A stretch of DNA of 22,765 nucleotides from a virus: positions 1 to 22,765 of the IMG/VR virus record IMGVR_UViG_3300043331_000668, one strand, 5' to 3'. The translations under genes were made by a program, and so were the position numbers. This document shows positions 3 through 22,563 of this stretch, in pieces. Every line of letters starts with the position of its first letter. Positions within the stretch are counted from its first letter, which is position 1. The notes beneath the pieces are model-generated. The model made no database searches. It was not told the origin of the DNA and saw only the letters and a list, made by a program, of their open reading frames with translations.

Positions 3-239
3 CTGCGTGAGCTGGTGCTGGCCCGGGATCAGCACACCTGCCAGGCGGCGGTGCGGGGGTTCCCCCATCACTGCTTCGGGGGACTTCACGTCCACCACCG
101 GCTCCCCCTGAGCCGGGGCGGCAAGCACACCCTGGACAACCTCGTCGCTGTCTGCCTCAGCGCGCACGACCGGCTGCACAACGTCGACCGAGCCGGGGCC
201 TATGCCTGCGGCCTGCTGTTGCAGACCGCAGGCAGCTAG
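3..239 (+). CDS. HNH endonuclease, 5'-truncated by window edge
   Basis: The reading frame is open from the first bases of the window (LREL before the first GTG at 15), so the N-terminus is probably missing. The visible part has the HNH-nuclease pattern: RDQHTC with a Cys, then HVHHRLPLSRGGKHTLDNL and a final C-x5-H-D-x2-HN. This is the beta-beta-alpha-metal fold with the central His pair, an Asn in DNL and the distal His. The Cys residues suggest a zinc-stabilised variant. In actinophages such small HNH proteins often lie near the packaging genes and nick or cut DNA. No terminase is visible here to confirm that role. It ends two bases before the convergent gene at 241. Confidence 0.8.
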   Translation: MRELVLARDQHTCQAAVRGFPHHCFGGLHVHHRLPLSRGGKHTLDNLVAVCLSAHDRLHNVDRAGAYACGLLLQTAGS

Positions 240-3129: not shown

Positions 3130-3467
3130 CCCGCGTCGAGGTCGAGGAGCGCATCTGCCGCCTGACCGACGTCCTGGAGGAGCGCACCGGCGACTACCGG
3201 CGGCTGGCCCACAAGGCCGCCGAGGCCGAGGCCAGCTACCGCGCCCACCACGCGATGTGCACGCTGGCGATCATCAACGGAGCGGGGGACAAGAAGATGA
3301 CCGTGGACGAGCGCGCTGCCCGCGCCGACGCCAGCAGCAACGAGGAATACAAGACCTTCCTCATCGCCACCGCGGCACGCAACTCGTGCCGGGAATCACT
3401 GCTTAGCCTGCGCGCCACGCTCGACGCGCTGAGGACCCTCGCGGCTTCGATCCGCGCGCTGTCGTGA
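3108..3467 (+). CDS. Helical phage hypothetical protein
   Basis: 119 residues from an ATG preceded by GGAGAGCC. Almost wholly alpha-helical: EVEERICRLTDVLEERT, then AHKAAEAEASYRAHHA, and a C-terminal helix with SLRATLDALRTLAASIRAL. The segment around SNEEYKTFLIATAARNSCRESL looks like a protein family found in other actinophages, but no function is known to me. Ends with GTGA overlap into the next gene. Confidence 0.72.
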   Translation: MQDNEILTRVEVEERICRLTDVLEERTGDYRRLAHKAAEAEASYRAHHAMCTLAIINGAGDKKMTVDERAARADASSNEEYKTFLIATAARNSCRESLLSLRATLDALRTLAASIRALS

Positions 3468-3718
3468 ACCGCTCGATCCCCCCAGCCCGAACCCCGCTGG
3501 AGCGGGAACTGGAGCGAATCCAGATTCGCGTCACCCAAGGCGAGCTGGCCGAACTCCACCGCCGGGAGCTCATCGCCCGGCTCTACGAGCAGGGGATGAC
3601 CCAAGTCGAGATCGCCGCCCGCCTGACGAGAGCCGCCAAGCGCGCCGGTGGCAAGGCCGTGGGCGAAGATGCGGTGCAGAAGAACGTGAGGAAGTGGCGG
3701 ATGAAGGGAGCGGCATGA
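3464..3718 (+). CDS. Small helix-turn-helix protein
   Basis: 84 residues from the GTG at 3464, overlapping the previous stop (GTGA). RELIARLYEQGMTQVEIAARL is a textbook helix-turn-helix opening, followed by a basic recognition segment (GEDAVQKNVRKWRMKG). Probably a DNA-binding protein. Position directly before the ParB-like gene (ATGA overlap) suggests a regulator or DNA-targeting partner for the modification genes, which is inference. Confidence 0.72.
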   Translation: MNRSIPPARTPLERELERIQIRVTQGELAELHRRELIARLYEQGMTQVEIAARLTRAAKRAGGKAVGEDAVQKNVRKWRMKGAA

Positions 3719-4350
3719 ACATCGTCCAGCAGGAATTCGATCCCGAAGTCCCGATCGACAAGATCAGCGAGCACCCCAACAATCCACGGCGAGGGGACGA
3801 CGCCGTGGTCGCGCAGAGCATCAAGCACAACGGCTGGTTCGGGGCGGTGTTGATCCAGCGCTCGACGGGGTGGGTGATCGCCGGGAACACGAGGTTCCGG
3901 GTGCTGCGCGACCAGGGGGCCAAGACAATCCCGGCCTTCTGGCTCGACGTCGATGACGCAACGGCCAAGAAGATCATGCTGGTCGACAACCGCAGCTCGG
4001 ACCTGGCGTTCTACGACGACACCGAGCTGTTCGGCTTGCTGCAACAGCTGGTCGAGAGCGACGGCGGGGCGGGCCTGGAAGCGGCAGGCTACGACCGCGC
4101 CGCCTACGAGCTGCTGCTCCAGAGCATCGAGTCGGACACCATCATCGGCGGCATCCGCCAGGGGCTCACCCCCGACGACCGGCTCGACGCGTACAACGAG
4201 CTCGACGTCAGGTCGATCATCCTGCCCTACGGCCCCAACGACTACGAGACCGTCGCCGGTGGGCTGTCCAAGCTGCGCGAGCGGTTCGGCCTCCAGACCA
4301 ACGCCGAAGTCGTCCAGCGCCTCGTCGCCGACGTGTTGACGGCGGTCTAG
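3715..4350 (+). CDS. ParB/sulfiredoxin-fold nuclease-like domain protein
   Basis: 211 residues. The N-terminal half matches the ParB-N fold: PIDKISEHPNNPRRGDDAV, then SIKHNGWFGAVLIQR, WVIAGNTRFRVLRDQGAKTI (GNTRF at residues 57-61 replaces the usual GxHR box), and IMLVDNRSSDLA. The C-terminal part (about 155-211) is a small helical module. The ParB fold is known as a CTPase/nuclease domain and is common in phage genes beside DNA-modifying enzymes. The start ATG overlaps the previous stop and follows AAGGGAG. It precedes the dioxygenase by a TAGTG junction, so it belongs to the same unit. Its exact activity is unknown. Confidence 0.82.
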   Translation: MNIVQQEFDPEVPIDKISEHPNNPRRGDDAVVAQSIKHNGWFGAVLIQRSTGWVIAGNTRFRVLRDQGAKTIPAFWLDVDDATAKKIMLVDNRSSDLAFYDDTELFGLLQQLVESDGGAGLEAAGYDRAAYELLLQSIESDTIIGGIRQGLTPDDRLDAYNELDVRSIILPYGPNDYETVAGGLSKLRERFGLQTNAEVVQRLVADVLTAV

Positions 4351-5360
4351 TGCGCCGCGAGAACACCCCGATCAAACGGCTGGAGCTGGAGCGCCAGGCC
4401 CCACTGGTGCCGTGCGCCTACGCCGAAGGGCATAAGGACCAGTGGGACGGTCGGGTGCTCAGCTGCGGGGAGATGATTCCGTTCAAGCCGCGCCAGCCGT
4501 GCCCTTCCTGTAGTCAGATGCAGATCCGGGCCAATCCCCGCCACCCCACCGAGCGCGACCGCGTGCTCACCGAGGACACCGCCATCGTCGACGCCGCCAC
4601 GGGCGAAGTGGTCGTCGTCTACGTGGTCCCGGCCAGGCACCTCGCCACCCGCTTGGCCAACGCGCTGGCGAAGGTCAGGTTCGAACCGGGTGGGTGGGAC
4701 CGGGACTTCTTCGGCCCCAACGCCAGCACCACCACGCGCCTCAGCGGGGTCGTCGTCACTCACGCCACCTTCGGCTATCAGCCTCCAGCCCCGATGCGCC
4801 GCCGGTGGGCCTGCTGCCGGAGCCAGTTCAACGACCGCAATGCCGAAGCGATGGGCGTGCTCACCGAGTTCTGCCGTCTGGCGGAGCACGTCTTCCGCAT
4901 CCAGGCCCCCGACGTACACGATCGCACCGCCGGGCGGGTCCGTGACCTGATCGCCCCGGCCTGGCTGATCGGGGGCACGCCGTGGACCTCGGGCATCATC
5001 AACCGCACCGCCGCCCTGCCCTATCACCGTGACCAGTCGAACGTCCCCGGCTCCTGGTCGGCGATGCTGGGCTGCCGCCGCGAAGTCGAAGGCGGGATGC
5101 TGCACCTGGCCGACTACAACGTCTACCTTCCCGTCGAGCACGGCAGCATCACGATCCTGGACGGTCAGTCCGTCGTCCACGGGGTCACCCCGCTGCACCT
5201 GGCGGCCAGTCGCGGCTTCCGCTACACGGTCGTCACCTACGCCAAGACGGCGATGAGCAAGTGCGCCGAGGACCCCGCTCACGAACTGCGCCGAGCCCAG
5301 CTGGCCGCCACGATGGCCGAGGAGGCCAAGCGGGACCGTCTCACCGCGGCAGGCCGATGA
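4350..5360 (+). CDS. TET/JBP-family 2-oxoglutarate/Fe(II) dioxygenase
   Basis: 336 residues from the GTG at 4350. The C-terminal half has the full double-stranded beta-helix signature: SGIINRTAALPYHRD (metal ligands H226 and D228), WSAMLGCR, VEGGMLHLADY, GSITILDGQSVVHGVTP (third ligand H277), and FRYTVV with R291 for the 2-oxoglutarate carboxylate. SGIxN before HxD and DGQxxxHGVTP are characteristic of phage TET/JBP enzymes, which oxidise the methyl group of 5-methylcytosine or thymine in DNA. The N-terminus has C22, C39 and CPSC (51-54), a possible zinc site. It is coupled to the transferase (ATGA). The substrate cannot be read from sequence alone. An unrelated 2OG oxygenase is the main alternative but less likely given the neighbours. 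Confidence 0.87.
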   Translation: MRRENTPIKRLELERQAPLVPCAYAEGHKDQWDGRVLSCGEMIPFKPRQPCPSCSQMQIRANPRHPTERDRVLTEDTAIVDAATGEVVVVYVVPARHLATRLANALAKVRFEPGGWDRDFFGPNASTTTRLSGVVVTHATFGYQPPAPMRRRWACCRSQFNDRNAEAMGVLTEFCRLAEHVFRIQAPDVHDRTAGRVRDLIAPAWLIGGTPWTSGIINRTAALPYHRDQSNVPGSWSAMLGCRREVEGGMLHLADYNVYLPVEHGSITILDGQSVVHGVTPLHLAASRGFRYTVVTYAKTAMSKCAEDPAHELRRAQLAATMAEEAKRDRLTAAGR

Positions 5361-6352
5361 CCGACCACTGGCGGCTGTTCAGTGAGTTCTGCCGCTACGA
5401 GAAGGCGGTCGGCGGGCCCAGCGCGCACCTGTGCATGGTCGCCGGGATGAGTCACGGTCTCCCCGTGCACGAGCAGGTGTGGCGGGCGGGCTGCTACGCG
5501 GCGTTCTACAACACGGGCAGCGCGATGGCGCTGTGGAGTCACCTCAGCCACGACGAGGTGCTCGCCAGCAGCGAGGACGAGCTGCGTGACGGGCTCACTG
5601 ACTGCTGGGATGGACTTACCTTCCACCGCCACCGCCGGGCCATCCGCCGCTCGGACAAGCTGGCCCACTACCTGCGCGCCTACGCGCTGCGCTCACGCGA
5701 CTGGCCGGACCGGGACTGGTGGCACGGCGCGCCCTCCCCGGCGAACTACCAAGCCGCCTGGAACGACGTACTTGGCGTGTATGGAGTCGGCCGCTACATC
5801 GCCATCCGCATCCTGGAGCTGTTCTCCCGCTTTGGGGCGGGGACGGCGCTGCACGACATCCGGGCCCGCGACGCGGCATCGCCCCGGCGCACGCTGTCGC
5901 TGCTGTGGCCCCAGCACACCCGCGTATTGTCGACCGACAACAGCTTGGCCGGGGCGGCCAAGTCGGAGTCGATCGCCAACACCACGCTGCGCCGGGTGCG
6001 CGACGAGTGGGGCGTCGAGCTCAATCACTACGAGCTCCAGGTGATGACCTGCGAGTACCACCAGTCGATCGACAACCGCAAGCAGTTCCCCGGCAAGAGC
6101 ATCGACGGCGAGGCCAAGGCACTGCGCGCCGCCGAGCCGTACTGGGGCACGGCGCTGACCGAACCCGGCTGGGGAATGCGGCGGGAGCTGTTCCCCGAGG
6201 TGTCGCTGGGCGAAATCCACGGATGGACCTCCCGTGACGAGCTGGGCGCCGTCGCCGCCGACTACGGGTACACCTGGAGCGACCTGCGCTACGACTACAA
6301 GGCGACGCGCGACCTGGCGCATCCGGCCGTGCGGGAATCCTCACTGGTGTGA
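5357..6352 (+). CDS. aGPT-Pplase-type amino acid:DNA transferase
   Basis: 331 residues from the ATG overlapping the dioxygenase stop. Features of the aGPT-Pplase family (alpha-glutamyl/putrescinyl-thymine pyrophosphorylase, distantly related to HhH DNA glycosylases): an all-helical body, YNTGSAMALWSHLS (51-64), RRAIRRSDKLAHYLRAY (93-109), the hairpin VYGVGRYIAIRILELF (141-156), and TCEYHQSIDNRKQFPGKSID (231-250), which matches the conserved CEY...GKxID box. Known members transfer an amino acid or polyamine onto phosphorylated hydroxymethyl-pyrimidines in phage DNA. The dioxygenase upstream and kinase downstream support this. The acceptor amine is unknown. A helical glycosylase homologue with another role is the alternative. 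Confidence 0.78.
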   Translation: MTDHWRLFSEFCRYEKAVGGPSAHLCMVAGMSHGLPVHEQVWRAGCYAAFYNTGSAMALWSHLSHDEVLASSEDELRDGLTDCWDGLTFHRHRRAIRRSDKLAHYLRAYALRSRDWPDRDWWHGAPSPANYQAAWNDVLGVYGVGRYIAIRILELFSRFGAGTALHDIRARDAASPRRTLSLLWPQHTRVLSTDNSLAGAAKSESIANTTLRRVRDEWGVELNHYELQVMTCEYHQSIDNRKQFPGKSIDGEAKALRAAEPYWGTALTEPGWGMRRELFPEVSLGEIHGWTSRDELGAVAADYGYTWSDLRYDYKATRDLAHPAVRESSLV

Positions 6353-6807
6353 AGACGTTGATGTACGACGTCGGTGAGGGCCGGGTGTTCATGGGCCCGC
6401 AGCTGCTCGACGTCCCCGCCCTGCCCAAGGCGACCGCGATGACCGAGCGGGGCATCACGATGGTGATCAACCTGTGGCATGGGCGTGACGATGCCCTCGC
6501 TGCTGCGGTAGCTGATTACGTCCACGTTCCAGTACCCGACGGCCGAATGAACGATGACAGCTTCGCCCACTACGACGTCCACGCCCGGCTTGCCGCGCGT
6601 GCCGTGGCCAACGGGGGCAGCGTGCTCACTCAATGCCAGGGGGGCCGCAATCGCAGCGGCCTGCTGGCTGGGCTGACGCTGTGCTACTGGCTCGGTATCA
6701 GCGGTAACGAAGCCGTGGCGCGCGTGCGCGCCGGTCGAGGCGGAGTCGCCATCCGCAACCCCCACTTTCAGTCGTGGTTGAAGTCGATCCCGGCGCACGC
6801 GGCATGA
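6349..6807 (+). CDS. Dual-specificity/tyrosine phosphatase-like protein
   Basis: 152 residues from GTG at 6349 (GTGA overlap with the transferase). The CX5R signature loop is present: TQCQGGRNRSGL, with nucleophile C96 and R102 followed by S103. The upstream VPVPDGRMND offers D64 as possible general acid. The order of elements (MTERGITMVINLW, then the acidic loop, then the CX5R loop and a C-terminal helix) is that of compact cysteine-dependent phosphatases. Being sandwiched between transferase and kinase suggests the target is a phosphorylated base, nucleotide or modification enzyme, but this is inference. It could also act on host proteins. Confidence 0.82.
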   Translation: MKTLMYDVGEGRVFMGPQLLDVPALPKATAMTERGITMVINLWHGRDDALAAAVADYVHVPVPDGRMNDDSFAHYDVHARLAARAVANGGSVLTQCQGGRNRSGLLAGLTLCYWLGISGNEAVARVRAGRGGVAIRNPHFQSWLKSIPAHAA

Positions 6808-7340
6808 TCTACTACGCCGTCATCGGCCCCCCCGGGGTGGGCAAGACGACGGCGGTGCAGCGAGCACTCGGCCCACCTACCAGCCAACTTGTGAACCCGG
6901 TTCCGCACTTGATCTACGGCGACGGCGGGCTGATCCAGTTGGGCCGGATCCGCCCGCCGATGAGCGGCACCGACGCCCTCAGCATGTCGATCGCCCCCGC
7001 CGCGCTGGAGTTCCTCCGCGCCGAGCCAGCGCCCAAGGTGGTAGCTGAAGGCGACCGGCTGGCATCGGGCAAGTTCCTCGACGCCGTGGCGAAGTTCGCG
7101 CGGGTGGTGGTCGTGCTCATCGACGCCCCGGCGTGGGAGTGTCGCCAGCGAGCCTCAGCTCGGGGATCGAACCAAGACCCGAGCTGGTTCAAGGGTCGGC
7201 TGACCAAGTTGGATAACCTGATCGCGGAGCGACCGCACGTCAGGATCAGTGGCAGGCAGTCGCCGGTGGGCGTGGCCGTGGACCTCGCCGCGACGCTTGG
7301 CCTACCGGGGCCCCGCGGCCCCGGCCTCGACAGCTTCTGA
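6804..7340 (+). CDS. P-loop kinase, probable 5-hydroxymethylpyrimidine DNA kinase
   Basis: 178 residues from ATG at 6804 (ATGA overlap). Walker A GPPGVGKTT at residues 8-16, then the family-typical MSGTDALSM (53-61), VVAEGDRLASGKF (79-91), LIDAP (105-109) and an Arg-rich lid (CRQRASARG). The GTDxLS and EGDR boxes are what I associate with the hydroxymethyl-uracil/cytosine DNA kinases of hypermodifying phages, which phosphorylate the hydroxymethyl group on DNA. Last gene of the rightward operon. Its 3' end overlaps the convergent gene ending at 7302 by 39 bases. The alternative is a nucleoside or nucleotide kinase. Confidence 0.82.
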   Translation: MIYYAVIGPPGVGKTTAVQRALGPPTSQLVNPVPHLIYGDGGLIQLGRIRPPMSGTDALSMSIAPAALEFLRAEPAPKVVAEGDRLASGKFLDAVAKFARVVVVLIDAPAWECRQRASARGSNQDPSWFKGRLTKLDNLIAERPHVRISGRQSPVGVAVDLAATLGLPGPRGPGLDSF

Positions 7341-14141: not shown

Positions 14142-14521
14142 CCCTCGACACGCTCCCGAGAGTTCAGCGTGACATCGACCCGGTGGATGTCACCAGGCTC
14201 CAGCTCGGAGACCTGGAGGTCTCCACGAAGCTGCTCGGTCGCGTTCTCGATCGCGTCTGTGGTGGCCTCGATGACGACCTTGTATTCGATCCTCCACCGC
14301 GCCCAGCACGGCTGGAGGTGGGCATCGGAGCACCGGGCGTTCACATCGTCGACGAACGCTCGGTAGTCCTCACACCACCCCCGATCCCCGGCCTCGCTCT
14401 TGAGTGCCTCGGCGATGATGCGGATATCGTTCTTCAGCACCTCGATCGTCAGCTTCGCCACGTCGAGCTGGTGCACCACGTCGGTGTGCTCGGTGATAGC
14501 TAGGTCCTGATCAAGCGTCAT
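14138..14521 (-). CDS. Actinophage hypothetical protein, helical
   Basis: 127 residues from ATG at 14521, preceded by ACGAAAGGAACAGGA. Contains HQLDVAKLTIEVLKNDIRI (coiled-coil-like), GWCEDYRAFVDDVN and WRIEYKVVIEATTDA, resembling small proteins found in other actinophages whose function is unknown to me. Ends in ATGA overlap with the double HTH gene. First gene of a three-gene unit with the ATPase. Confidence 0.72.
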   Translation of the reverse strand: MTLDQDLAITEHTDVVHQLDVAKLTIEVLKNDIRIIAEALKSEAGDRGWCEDYRAFVDDVNARCSDAHLQPCWARWRIEYKVVIEATTDAIENATEQLRGDLQVSELEPGDIHRVDVTLNSRERVEG

Positions 14522-14590
14522 TCCTGTTCCTTTCGTTCTAGCCGCCCCCAGCGGGCCGTCACTTGACAGCTTACTACCGCCGAGGGGCGG
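14522..14590 (-). promoter_or_regulatory. Leader/promoter element for the 14521 gene
   Basis: Leftward reading: CCGCC-CCTC-GGCGG stem (14577-14581 with 14586-14590), AGTAAGCT (box TAAGCT 14568-14573), GTCAAGTGACG (14557-14567), a short GCCC/GGGC stem, and GAAAGGAAC. Nearly the same as the leader at 12108-12176. The core AGCTGTCAAGTGACGG is identical in both. Confidence 0.6.
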
Positions 14591-15026
14591 GGGTTTCTTC
14601 GGTTACTGCCCGCCTTGCCCCGCGGCGCCCTGCGATCCGTAACGGACGAAGCGTTGCCCTGCCTGCCGTGCCGCGCCTCACCGCTACGGTCCAAGCCCGG
14701 CCTTGCTGCGCCTTCCCGTCGTGCCCGCCCTGCCGCGCCTATCTGTCCTGGACGCGCGCGAACTGGCCGTGCCTGCCCTGCCGGGACATACCAAGCCACA
14801 CCGGACGGTTCCATCCGTGCCCGGCCTTGCCCGCCCCGCCTCGCCGAGAACTGCCACGACACACCCGACCGAACCGCGCCAAGCACCCCAAACCGCGCCC
14901 GCCTTGCCGAGCTGAGCAGTGCGAAGAAACCGGAGCCGCGCCAAGCACCGCCCGCCTTGCCGGACCACGCCTTGCCCCACAGGGCCACCGATGCCGTGCC
15001 TCCGCCCGCCGTGCCTTGATGCGACG

Positions 15027-15159
15027 CACCCAGCTGAATGCTGCCGGACCCAGCCCTCCGTGCGATGCCCAGCCCGCCTTGCCCAGCCCGGCCTTGCTAC
15101 ACATGCAGCACCCAGCTGAAACATGCCGGACCCAGCCCAGCCCGCCTTGCCCAGCCCGG
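15027..15159. repeat. Imperfect tandem duplication inside the C-rich block
   Basis: CACCCAGCTGAA at 15027-15038 recurs at 15109-15120 (82 bases apart), and AGCCCGCCTTGCCCAGCCC at 15071 recurs at 15139 (68 apart, so 14 bases were lost or gained). GCCGGACCCAGCCC is also repeated at 82 bases. Confidence 0.75.
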
Positions 15160-16034
15160 TCGCGCTGCCCACGCCGAACTTAGCCTTGCCCGCCTTGCCT
15201 GGCCTTGCCACCGCTGACTCGCCCAGCCGAGCTCTCCGGAACCAGCGCTGCCCTGCCTGCCTGGCCTGGCCCTGCCCCGTCATCCGTGTCGGACCCCGCC
15301 ACGCTGCGCCTGCCTGGCCTTGCCTTGACCAGCAGCACCTTCCACGCCAGACCCGGCGATGCCGTGCCTGCCATGCCCTGCTGAGCCTCGTGCAGCCAAT
15401 CGGACCGAGCCACGCCTGCCGTGCCTGCGCCGTGCCGGGTCGAGCGCCGCCGGACCCATCCATCCGAGCCCCACTTGCCTGCCGGGCCTTGCTGCCCCCG
15501 CCAAACGTCCCTTGACCAGCCGGACCTGCCTGGCCGAACGCTGCCGTAAATGCAGTACCGAGTCGAGCCGCGCCCAGGTGAGCCTTGCCCGCCGTACCTG
15601 ACCTTGCCCATCCATCCGGGCCTTGCCCGCCGCGCCCTGCACAACCGGGCAATCCGTACCCGGCCAAGCCTTGCGCTGCCTGCCGGGCGGTGCCGGGCCA
15701 ATCCACTCCTCGCCCTGCCGCCAACCTGCCGGGCCCCGCCTGCCTGGCCATGACTAGCCGGACGCAGCCACACCGTCAACACCTCGCCCCGTCTTGCCCG
15801 CCTGACCGAGCCCCGCGCGACCGTGCATTGCCGCTCGCACCACGCCTTGCCTGCCTGGCCCGGCCCCACCTTGACCAACACTCCGGTCCTTGCCATGCGC
15901 TGCCTGCCTCACCTGACCTCGCCCAGCCACGCCCGACCAAACGACACGATGCGCAGCCCCGCCCGCCTTGCCGCACAAGACGAAACCCACCAGGCCCGAA
16001 CATGCCCAGCCTTGCCCGCCTTGCCGCGCCGGAC

Positions 16035-16080
16035 CGCGTGTAGCCGCGCCCTGCCACGGCTGGACGCGTGTAGCCGCGCC
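16035..16080. repeat. 30-base tandem repeat inside the C-rich block
   Basis: CGCGTGTAGCCGCGCC at 16035-16050 recurs at 16065-16080, exactly 30 bases later. Confidence 0.7.
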
Positions 16081-16862
16081 TGCCTGGCCGTGCCGAGCGA
16101 TCGAAGCCGCCCAAGCGAAGTGGACCTGGCCTTGCCTGCCCCGCCAAACCGTTCCGCGCCAAGCGATCCGTGTAGAGCCACGCCGCGCCCGCCCCGCCAC
16201 ACCTGGCCGGACCCTGCGGTGGTGCCCATACCAAGCCTTGCCCGCCGAGCCGCGCCTTCGATGCCTGAACCAGCCGCCCTGGCCGACCCGAGCCAAGCCT
16301 GCCCAGCGATGCCTTGCGGCGACGAGCTCTGCGAAGTCGACCAAGCCGTTGCGAACCTGGCCTTGCCTGCCTCGCCGGGCTAAGCGTTGCCGGGACGTGA
16401 CGGACGACGCCAAGCCACGATCGCCGTGCCCGCCATGCCAGACCAAGCGGTGCCTTCCCGCACCGTTCCACGCCCGGCCTTGCCAGCCGAACCATGCCGC
16501 GCTATCCGTACTGAGCAAAGCCGGGACCAACCGGGCGATGCCGAGATGAACCGAGGTGGGCCCTGCCTGCCCAGCCGCACCATGAGCGACGTGCGAACGT
16601 AGACCTGCCATACCTGCCACACGGAACCCGGCCACAACGTGCGTAAACAGGCGTAGCCCTGCCCGCCGCGCCCAACCTCGCCTCCCTGGCCTGTCGATGC
16701 CTGGCCCGCCTTGCCAGGCCGGGCGGAGCACAACCTGGCCCGACCACACCCAGCGCTCCTTGCTGCCCTTGCTGCCCGTGCTGGGCCATACCTGCCTTGC
16801 CGTGACGTGCGTTGCCGTGCATCGTCCTTGCCACGCCCCACCGTCCATGCCATGCCTGACCG

Positions 16863-17063
16863 TCATGGCACCTCCCGCCTTACGTAGATGCCGCTGATGG
16901 TCGGCTCCGAGCAGGCGTAGCAAGCCTCCACCTTTGGTTCGCGCAGGCGAATCGGAATCCGCACGCTGACGAGCGAGCGGGTGACGCCATCTTCCGACGT
17001 CACCCACTCGCCCGTCTCGTCGAGCCAGCAGCGTTCACAGATGGGAACGCTCTGCCACGCCAT
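16863..17063 (-). CDS. Actinophage zinc-knuckle protein
   Basis: 66 residues. ICERCW near the N-terminus and CYACSEPTISGIYVR near the C-terminus give two CxxC knuckles around a beta-like middle (RSLVSVRIPIRL). This pattern is common in actinophage genomes. It is the last gene of its leftward unit; downstream in its direction the 2.27 kb C-rich block begins immediately, with no hairpin terminator visible between. Confidence 0.78.
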   Translation of the reverse strand: MAWQSVPICERCWLDETGEWVTSEDGVTRSLVSVRIPIRLREPKVEACYACSEPTISGIYVRREVP

Positions 17064-22057: not shown

Positions 22058-22321
22058 TCATCCCTTCTCTTTGCACAGCGGGCACTTGCGAGCGTGCCCG
22101 CCCTGGTTCTTCAACTGCCGCTCTCGCACGCGGCTGCCCTCCCACGTCCGGGCCAGCGTCCAGCTGATCCCGGCCGCCGCCACATGGCGGAGGAGGTTGG
22201 CTCCGGCGGCGGTGCCGTGATAGGCCAGCCGCCGGTCGAGGTTCCCCGGCCCCGCCCACCCCATGTAGTGGCGGGCGTGGCCGAAGGGCCGCTCGAAATG
22301 TAAGAGGTACACGGTTCCCAT
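22058..22321 (-). CDS. GIY-YIG-like nuclease-fold protein
   Basis: 87 residues from ATG at 22321. VYLLHFERP, then ARHYMGWAGPG, LDRRLAYHG, and WTLARTWEGSRVRERQLKN fit a minimal GIY-YIG fold: Tyr in VYL, Tyr-x-Gly in HYMG, Arg in LDRRL, and a Glu in RERQLK as candidate metal ligand. It ends in a CPLC knuckle. This is a familiar actinobacterial/phage family. Whether it cuts DNA is unproven, since the second motif deviates from the classical one. Confidence 0.68.
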   Translation of the reverse strand: MGTVYLLHFERPFGHARHYMGWAGPGNLDRRLAYHGTAAGANLLRHVAAAGISWTLARTWEGSRVRERQLKNQGGHARKCPLCKEKG

Positions 22322-22563
22322 CACGGCCGCTCCACGTCGATGCGCTGGTCGGCGTGGAAGGTCCAGTGCCGCGTCTTCCGACCGGCCCCGAACCCCTTGG
22401 TGATCCGTCCGCTGATGCGGACGGCCCCGAGGGGCCACACGGCCTTGTCGTTGGCGACCACCGGGTTGAGCTCGACGGCGTCGATCTCGATCACTTCGGT
22501 GCCGCTGACCCAGCGGTCACCGCGCCGGAGCTCGGTGACCGGATGTTCCCAGAGCGTGATCAC
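22321..22563 (-). CDS. Small hypothetical protein
   Basis: 80 residues from GTG at 22563, coupled to both neighbours (GTGA and TGATG). Beta-rich: RWVSGTEVIEIDAVELN, AVWPLGAVRISGRITKGFG, HWTFHAD. Possibly a small barrel. Unknown. Confidence 0.68.
   Translation of the reverse strand: MITLWEHPVTELRRGDRWVSGTEVIEIDAVELNPVVANDKAVWPLGAVRISGRITKGFGAGRKTRHWTFHADQRIDVERP

Follow-up and report, generated by a model that had tools for sequence, protein, structure and literature searches.

Gene cassettes of the kind considered here have been annotated before, with the cassette core occupying genes 1-5 of the Gordonia phage CaiB (PMC9302106) and a five-gene thymine hypermodification system recorded in the Rhodococcus phage Tonitrus (PMC11955845). 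In the family of the Pseudomonas phage PaMx11, 5hmdU is supplied by a deoxyuridylate hydroxymethyltransferase (PMC11946847). Thymidine hypermodification of the M6/ViI type (Lee et al. 2018, 2022) is presented, in the summaries given in PMC6449724 and PMC9476957, as relying on pre-replicative 5hmdU together with radical SAM and PLP tailoring enzymes, and phage systems combining a TET enzyme with a C5-methyltransferase and a glycosyltransferase are attributed to Burke et al. (2021, as cited in PMC12730594).

The window (the whole 22,765-base stretch of an IMG/VR virus record) is a fragment without end repeats, and its source virus is known from this 22.8-kb metagenomic fragment alone. Five open reading frames on the plus strand at 3715-7340 overlap successively by 1, 4, 4 and 4 bases, the junctions reading TAGTG, ATGA, GTGA and ATGA in that order; coordinates and junctions alike thus agree with the original prediction of five coupled genes sharing 1 or 4 bases with their neighbours. 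Another gene upstream, kept 5' of the ParB gene in the relatives of the window, overlaps the ParB-like gene by 4 bases (again an ATGA junction). The genes are as follows.

3464..3718, plus strand: small helix-turn-helix (HTH) protein (Pfam HTH_38 7e-4, weak and under the cut-off)
3715..4350, plus strand: ParB-like protein (PF02195 ParB_N 2.2e-7; phrog_723 2e-31)
4350..5360 (GTG start), plus strand: TET/JBP Fe(II)/2-oxoglutarate dioxygenase (PF12851 Tet_JBP 3.3e-10)
5357..6352, plus strand: predicted amino acid:DNA transferase (AADT; formerly aGPT-PPlase2; held-out profile 115.6 bits, 1.2e-36)
6349..6807 (GTG start), plus strand: dual-specificity-type phosphatase (DSP; PF00782 DSPc 9.3e-9)
6804..7340, plus strand: P-loop DNA-base kinase (PF18751 Ploopntkinase3 1.7e-18)

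As in the window, ParB-like, TET/JBP, PF18724 transferase and Ploopntkinase3 genes adjoin one another in CaiB and Tonitrus, whose tailoring gene, however, encodes a flavin/NAD-type oxidoreductase where the window has the DSP, and whose transferases are about 26% identical to that of the window in a profile alignment. The glycinyltransferase gp46 of PaMx11 (8z2m/8z2n) has the same fold and belongs to the same family as the window transferase, and the flavin-dependent lyase of that phage (8z2o/8z79) is homologous to the flavin gene that fills the tailoring slot of other cassettes; the PaMx11 family nevertheless takes the hydroxymethyltransferase route, whereas the window has a TET enzyme and a phosphatase. 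According to the summaries cited above, the M6/ViI-type pathway resembles the window in proceeding from a hydroxymethyl base through a DNA kinase to amine transfer, but the same summaries report neither a TET nor a DSP, both of which are found in the window. The systems of Burke et al., as far as the citing literature describes them, share the TET family, and relatives of the window TET (locus L016) sit with TET-associated glycosyltransferases; in place of the glycosyltransferase the window carries a kinase, a transferase and a phosphatase, and no C5-methyltransferase is encoded within the 22.8-kb fragment, a length too short to decide the matter.

In the light of the CaiB and Tonitrus precedents (PMC9302106, PMC11955845) and of some 40 loci described below, the core cassette is known and widespread, and the novelty originally claimed for the locus was rated too high. 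The locus is of interest rather for its phosphatase class and for the rule by which this is paired with a transferase.

Identity of the cassette proteins

Four of the five proteins have Pfam matches beyond the curated cut-offs (ParB_N, Tet_JBP, DSPc and Ploopntkinase3), so the cassette is not a chance assemblage. PADLOC and NCBIfam returned nothing specific for the window proteins; the match of the ParB-like protein to a methyltransferase model in these collections spans residues 21-141 of 211 and most likely reflects the ParB-like part. The ParB gene adjoins the TET gene in nearly all cassettes compared, and the HTH protein is probably a regulator or partner. A scan of genome contigs found no relative of the locus, hence no host or prophage.

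The window transferase itself yields no Pfam match, not even to PF18724 (amino acid:DNA transferase), and tblastn with it against named phages found nothing. Three close relatives, 67-77% identical, occur in viral contigs. The closest, the 77%-identical homologue in L001, matches PF18724 at 9.5e-6 and at the cut-off (25.9-26.2 bits against 26.2), and 31 of the 34 aligned transferases match the same model. A held-out AADT profile, for which 28 distant transferases were used and the close relatives of the window left out, scored the window transferase at 115.6 bits (1.2e-36) and none of the other tested window proteins above 0. Aligned with hhalign, the window-clade profile matched the actinophage transferases with 97% probability. 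PDB profile searches with the window-clade transferase, TET or kinase alignments alone gave no useful match; the 34-sequence transferase profile hit 25qc, an amino acid:DNA transferase, at 4.9e-22 and 8z2m at 9e-15.

With four close homologues only, AlphaFold2 produced a useless model (pLDDT 45); once 30 distant transferases had been added (34 sequences), pLDDT rose to 95.6. The best PDB match of this model in Foldseek is 8z2n, the PaMx11 5-phosphomethyl-dU glycinyltransferase (probability 1.00 and TM 0.48-0.54, with E-values that are weak, 0.01, despite that probability), followed by endonuclease III and OGG-type DNA glycosylases of the HhH type, and the best viral matches in BFVD include proteins named amino acid:DNA transferase (E about 1e-7). 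The original prediction was to be abandoned if the transferase found no structural counterpart in its family; the PaMx11 enzyme is such a counterpart. Because the input alignment holds family members, the match confirms the fold and adds no independent homology. Sequence comparison and the model together confirm the predicted identity of the window protein as an AADT with an HhH-glycosylase-like fold.

The remaining enzymes are recognised more directly. The dioxygenase scores 39.9 bits against PF12851 (curated cut-off 34.9) and aligns with actinophage TETs at 99.9% (hhalign, 3.6e-34); its iron ligands H226, D228 and H277 and the 2-oxoglutarate-binding R291 are invariant among 47 homologues, and an N-terminal four-cysteine motif (C22, C39, C51, C54) is invariant in the closest relatives. 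The kinase scores 67.3 bits against PF18751 (cut-off 27) and retains GPPGVGKTT (the P-loop), GTDALS and EGDR. In the phosphatase, which matches DSP/PTP structures in PDB profile searches, the catalytic C96-x5-R102 and the candidate general acid D64 are invariant in the alignment, and the Cx5R motif is kept in three lineages. All the identities first proposed for the five genes (ParB-like, TET/JBP, transferase, phosphatase, kinase) are therefore upheld, and the motifs on which they had been based are all found: YHRDQ, HGVTP and FRYTVV; VYGVGRY and TCEYHQSIDNRKQFPGKSID; and the three kinase motifs. Describing the locus as consistent with a complete pathway was fair, and the gene identities and the cassette are established by comparison of sequences and structures. 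A cassette that is non-functional, or that stops at a hydroxylated or phosphorylated base, finds a precedent of sorts in the Mycobacterium phage Nigel, which has ParB, TET and kinase genes without a transferase; with five intact, coupled frames and conserved catalytic residues, we regard this as very improbable for the window.

The tailoring gene is inherited with the transferase

Scans with the transferase, TET and kinase alignments gathered 40 non-redundant viral loci that have both a transferase and a kinase, nearly all of them also with TET and ParB genes (in L061 TET and transferase are fused in one 663-residue frame); the kinase is thus present in 40/40 cassettes. Exactly one tailoring gene is found in 34 of the 40, two in none, and none in six, one of these six being cut by a contig end. 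The tailoring genes fall into four classes, with Pfam supporting representatives of each and the remaining members assigned with profiles built here.

FAD/DAO-like flavin enzyme (PF01266): 13 loci
PLP-dependent enzyme (PF00291): 10 loci
DSP phosphatase (PF00782): 7 loci (the window, L001, L002, L003, L050, L053 and L055)
Asp/Asn-hydroxylase-like enzyme (PF05118): 4 loci

The flavin-dependent lyases studied in PaMx11 reportedly act on the glycinyl adduct. The flavin enzyme of the slot matches PDB entries 8z2o/8z79, annotated as 'flavin-dependent lyase', whose accession numbers come from one series with those of the glycinyltransferase (8z2m/8z2n), a resemblance which supports adduct tailoring as the business of the slot.

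In the transferase tree the DSP class forms one clade (100/100), and so does the hydroxylase class (100/100). Over all classes, the tailoring gene changes 9 times on the transferase tree, as against 14 times on the TET tree and 19 times on the kinase tree; for the DSP class the figures are 1, 3 and 4. A telling contrast is offered by L050 and L053, which have the DSP, and L051, which has the PLP enzyme: their TETs and kinases are near-sisters, but their transferases come from different clades, implying that transferase and tailoring gene were swapped as a pair. The tailoring enzyme is thus inherited together with the transferase, not with the TET or the kinase. Part of this co-inheritance could be linkage, given the adjacency of DSP and transferase genes. 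The kinase gene is, however, equally close to the DSP gene, yet the DSP does not follow it. Moreover, the flavin gene of CaiB and Tonitrus adjoins the kinase rather than the transferase, and L001-L003 have their kinase gene on the other strand, with transferase and DSP genes still coupled by a 4-base overlap; adjacency alone is therefore insufficient to account for the pairing. The original label of 'phosphatase' was right as to the family, but a generic phosphatase this is not, as it belongs to one of four tailoring classes tied to the transferase.

These patterns bear on what the phosphatase does. Since its class follows the transferase beyond mere adjacency, we infer that the DSP works together with its own class of transferase, acting either on what that enzyme makes or on its donor. 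Most likely it takes the phosphate off an amino-acid or amine adduct that carries one, the exact substrate being a guess. It might instead proof-read, leaving the adduct alone and clearing away those 5-phosphomethyl groups made by the kinase that have not reacted further, a role compatible with the presence of both enzymes in one cassette, with the position of the DSP gene between the transferase and kinase genes and with the intact catalytic residues. Any cassette would profit from such a service, which would be expected to go with the kinase, whereas 33 of the 40 cassettes have no DSP and the class changes four times on the kinase tree against once on the transferase tree; we therefore think proof-reading rather unlikely.

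Enzymes of the DSP type commonly act on proteins or phosphoproteins, and both this family background and the PDB matches would suit an unrelated accessory gene directed at host proteins. That the same transferase class accompanies the DSP in three separate TET lineages speaks against it, as do the translational coupling to the transferase by a 4-base overlap, seen in the window and in L001-L003, and the mutual exclusion with three other tailoring enzymes, so that an accessory role appears improbable. Searching named phages with the window DSP by tblastn found nothing, and we found no description of a DSP as the fifth gene of such a cassette, although a mention in Iyer 2013, Lee 2022, Burke 2021 or Wen 2024 is possible. 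The data indicate that phosphatase chemistry has a part in the hypermodification of DNA, of which we found no earlier description. If each cassette has a single tailoring enzyme that is passed on together with its transferase, the class of the transferase should predict the chemistry.

Proposed pathway and the modified base

We consider it likely that the window encodes a post-replicative DNA-base hypermodification cassette in which TET, kinase and transferase act in turn before the phosphatase finishes the product of its transferase class. In the first step, the TET/JBP enzyme would act on a pyrimidine that is already part of the DNA and hydroxylate its 5-methyl group; the kinase would then phosphorylate the hydroxymethyl group, and the AADT would put an amino acid or amine in place of the phosphate, an order proposed by analogy with the described systems. 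The phosphatase, occupying the slot otherwise held by flavin, PLP or hydroxylase enzymes, would complete the adduct, and the ParB-like and HTH proteins may target or regulate the process, the likely purpose of which would be protection from host nucleases. A more specific version, which we put forward tentatively and hold to be possible rather than probable, is that the transferase attaches an amino acid or amine already bearing a phosphate (for instance phosphoserine- or phosphoethanolamine-like) to the TET-oxidised base, possibly a cytosine, and that the dedicated phosphatase unmasks this group. If this phosphorylated-adduct reading is true, the DSP would represent a fourth tailoring class and its product a DNA base not yet described. 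The decoration of phage DNA has many such bases, and many unknown enzymes, to offer.

Both thymine and 5-methylcytosine are possible targets. No thymidylate-synthase/hydroxymethylase homologue was found in the 14 records tested, and the hydroxyl is thus presumably made in DNA by the TET enzyme. The base could be cytosine, with a phage C5-methyltransferase making 5mC, TET converting it to 5hmC, and kinase and transferase adding the amino acid. Among relatives with a full cassette, the three closest (G001, G002 and G003) indeed have a C5-methyltransferase with PCQ, ENV and RHR motifs; a C5-methyltransferase is also present in a TET-only relative (G009), and in L042 such a gene is less than 2.5 kb away from TET. 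Published phage TETs are said to use 5mC as their substrate (Burke et al. 2021, cited in PMC12730594 and PMC11404850). On the other hand, PF00145 is matched in only 3 of 29 other cassette records and the enzyme is found in none of four named actinophages; the TETs nearest to that of the window on the tree, those of L016 and L017, come from records without it; the methyltransferase genes of the relatives are distant from the cassette; 5-phosphomethyl-deoxyuridine is the substrate of the one AADT in the PDB that has been characterised; and the window is a fragment. On balance, cytosine seems rather unlikely. We had at one stage taken thymine as settled, after the Tonitrus annotation, and withdrew this in view of the C5-methyltransferases of the closest relatives; cytosine as settled was likewise withdrawn, as the nearest TETs and most cassettes lack a methyltransferase. 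The closely related viral group offers a handle on this question.

Beyond the cassette proper, it appears that different decorations can start from TET as their constant first step. Loci L016, L017 and L021 have the same HTH-ParB-TET block followed by glycosyltransferase-like genes instead, and in L001 a glycosyltransferase-like gene overlaps the transferase gene by 4 bases.

Genes associated with TET in related viruses

The block of ParB-like and TET/JBP dioxygenase (TET) genes found in the window adjoins, in four of the viral loci fetched for comparison, a glycosyltransferase-like gene with similarity, weak for some of the four, to TET-associated (TAGT) or HMC-glucosyltransferases. These genes stand in place of the cassette of the amino acid:DNA transferase in L016, L017 and L021, and are additional to it in L001, a close relative of the window:
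L001:7321-8004, glycosyltransferase-like gene
L016:7736-8518, glycosyltransferase-like gene
L017:3196-4005, glycosyltransferase-like gene
L021:3097-3972, glycosyltransferase-like gene

A natural TET-transferase fusion, a single 663-residue frame matching both proteins, occurs in another locus:
L061:2197-4185, TET-transferase fusion

Located apart from the cassette, four relatives of the window encode a short phage C5-cytosine methyltransferase with the motifs DLFCGAGG, PPCQ, IENVPG and RHR:
L029:1597-2277, C5-cytosine methyltransferase
L030:1586-2275, C5-cytosine methyltransferase
L031:1387-2049, C5-cytosine methyltransferase
L032:1458-2099, C5-cytosine methyltransferase

Database names of TET and the kinase

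Both proteins are encoded in NC_011044.1 (L008), the kinase matching Ploopntkinase3 at 2.9e-72:
776-1744, TET/JBP protein
1786-2382, Ploopntkinase3 kinase
RefSeq/PHROGs (phrog_6059 and phrog_800 are concerned) name them 'queuine tRNA-ribosyltransferase' and 'terminase small subunit', respectively; these labels are probably misannotations.

Fragment ends and a periodic tract

Two putative endonuclease frames, recognized by eye, lie one at either end of the window, the second being without a match in a Pfam search:
3-239 (+), putative HNH-type endonuclease
22058-22438 (-), putative GIY-YIG-type endonuclease

A C-rich, apparently non-coding tract of ~2.4 kb (14500-16950; GC skew down to -0.28) exhibits a degenerate 4.8-base periodicity with TGCC/GCCTT words and autocorrelation peaks at 5, 10, 14, 19, 24, 29 and onwards. 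Absent from all other fetched loci, the same periodic tract recurs in L017 (~4.0-5.2 kb), and Mycobacterium phage Donkeykong gives a weak blastn match.
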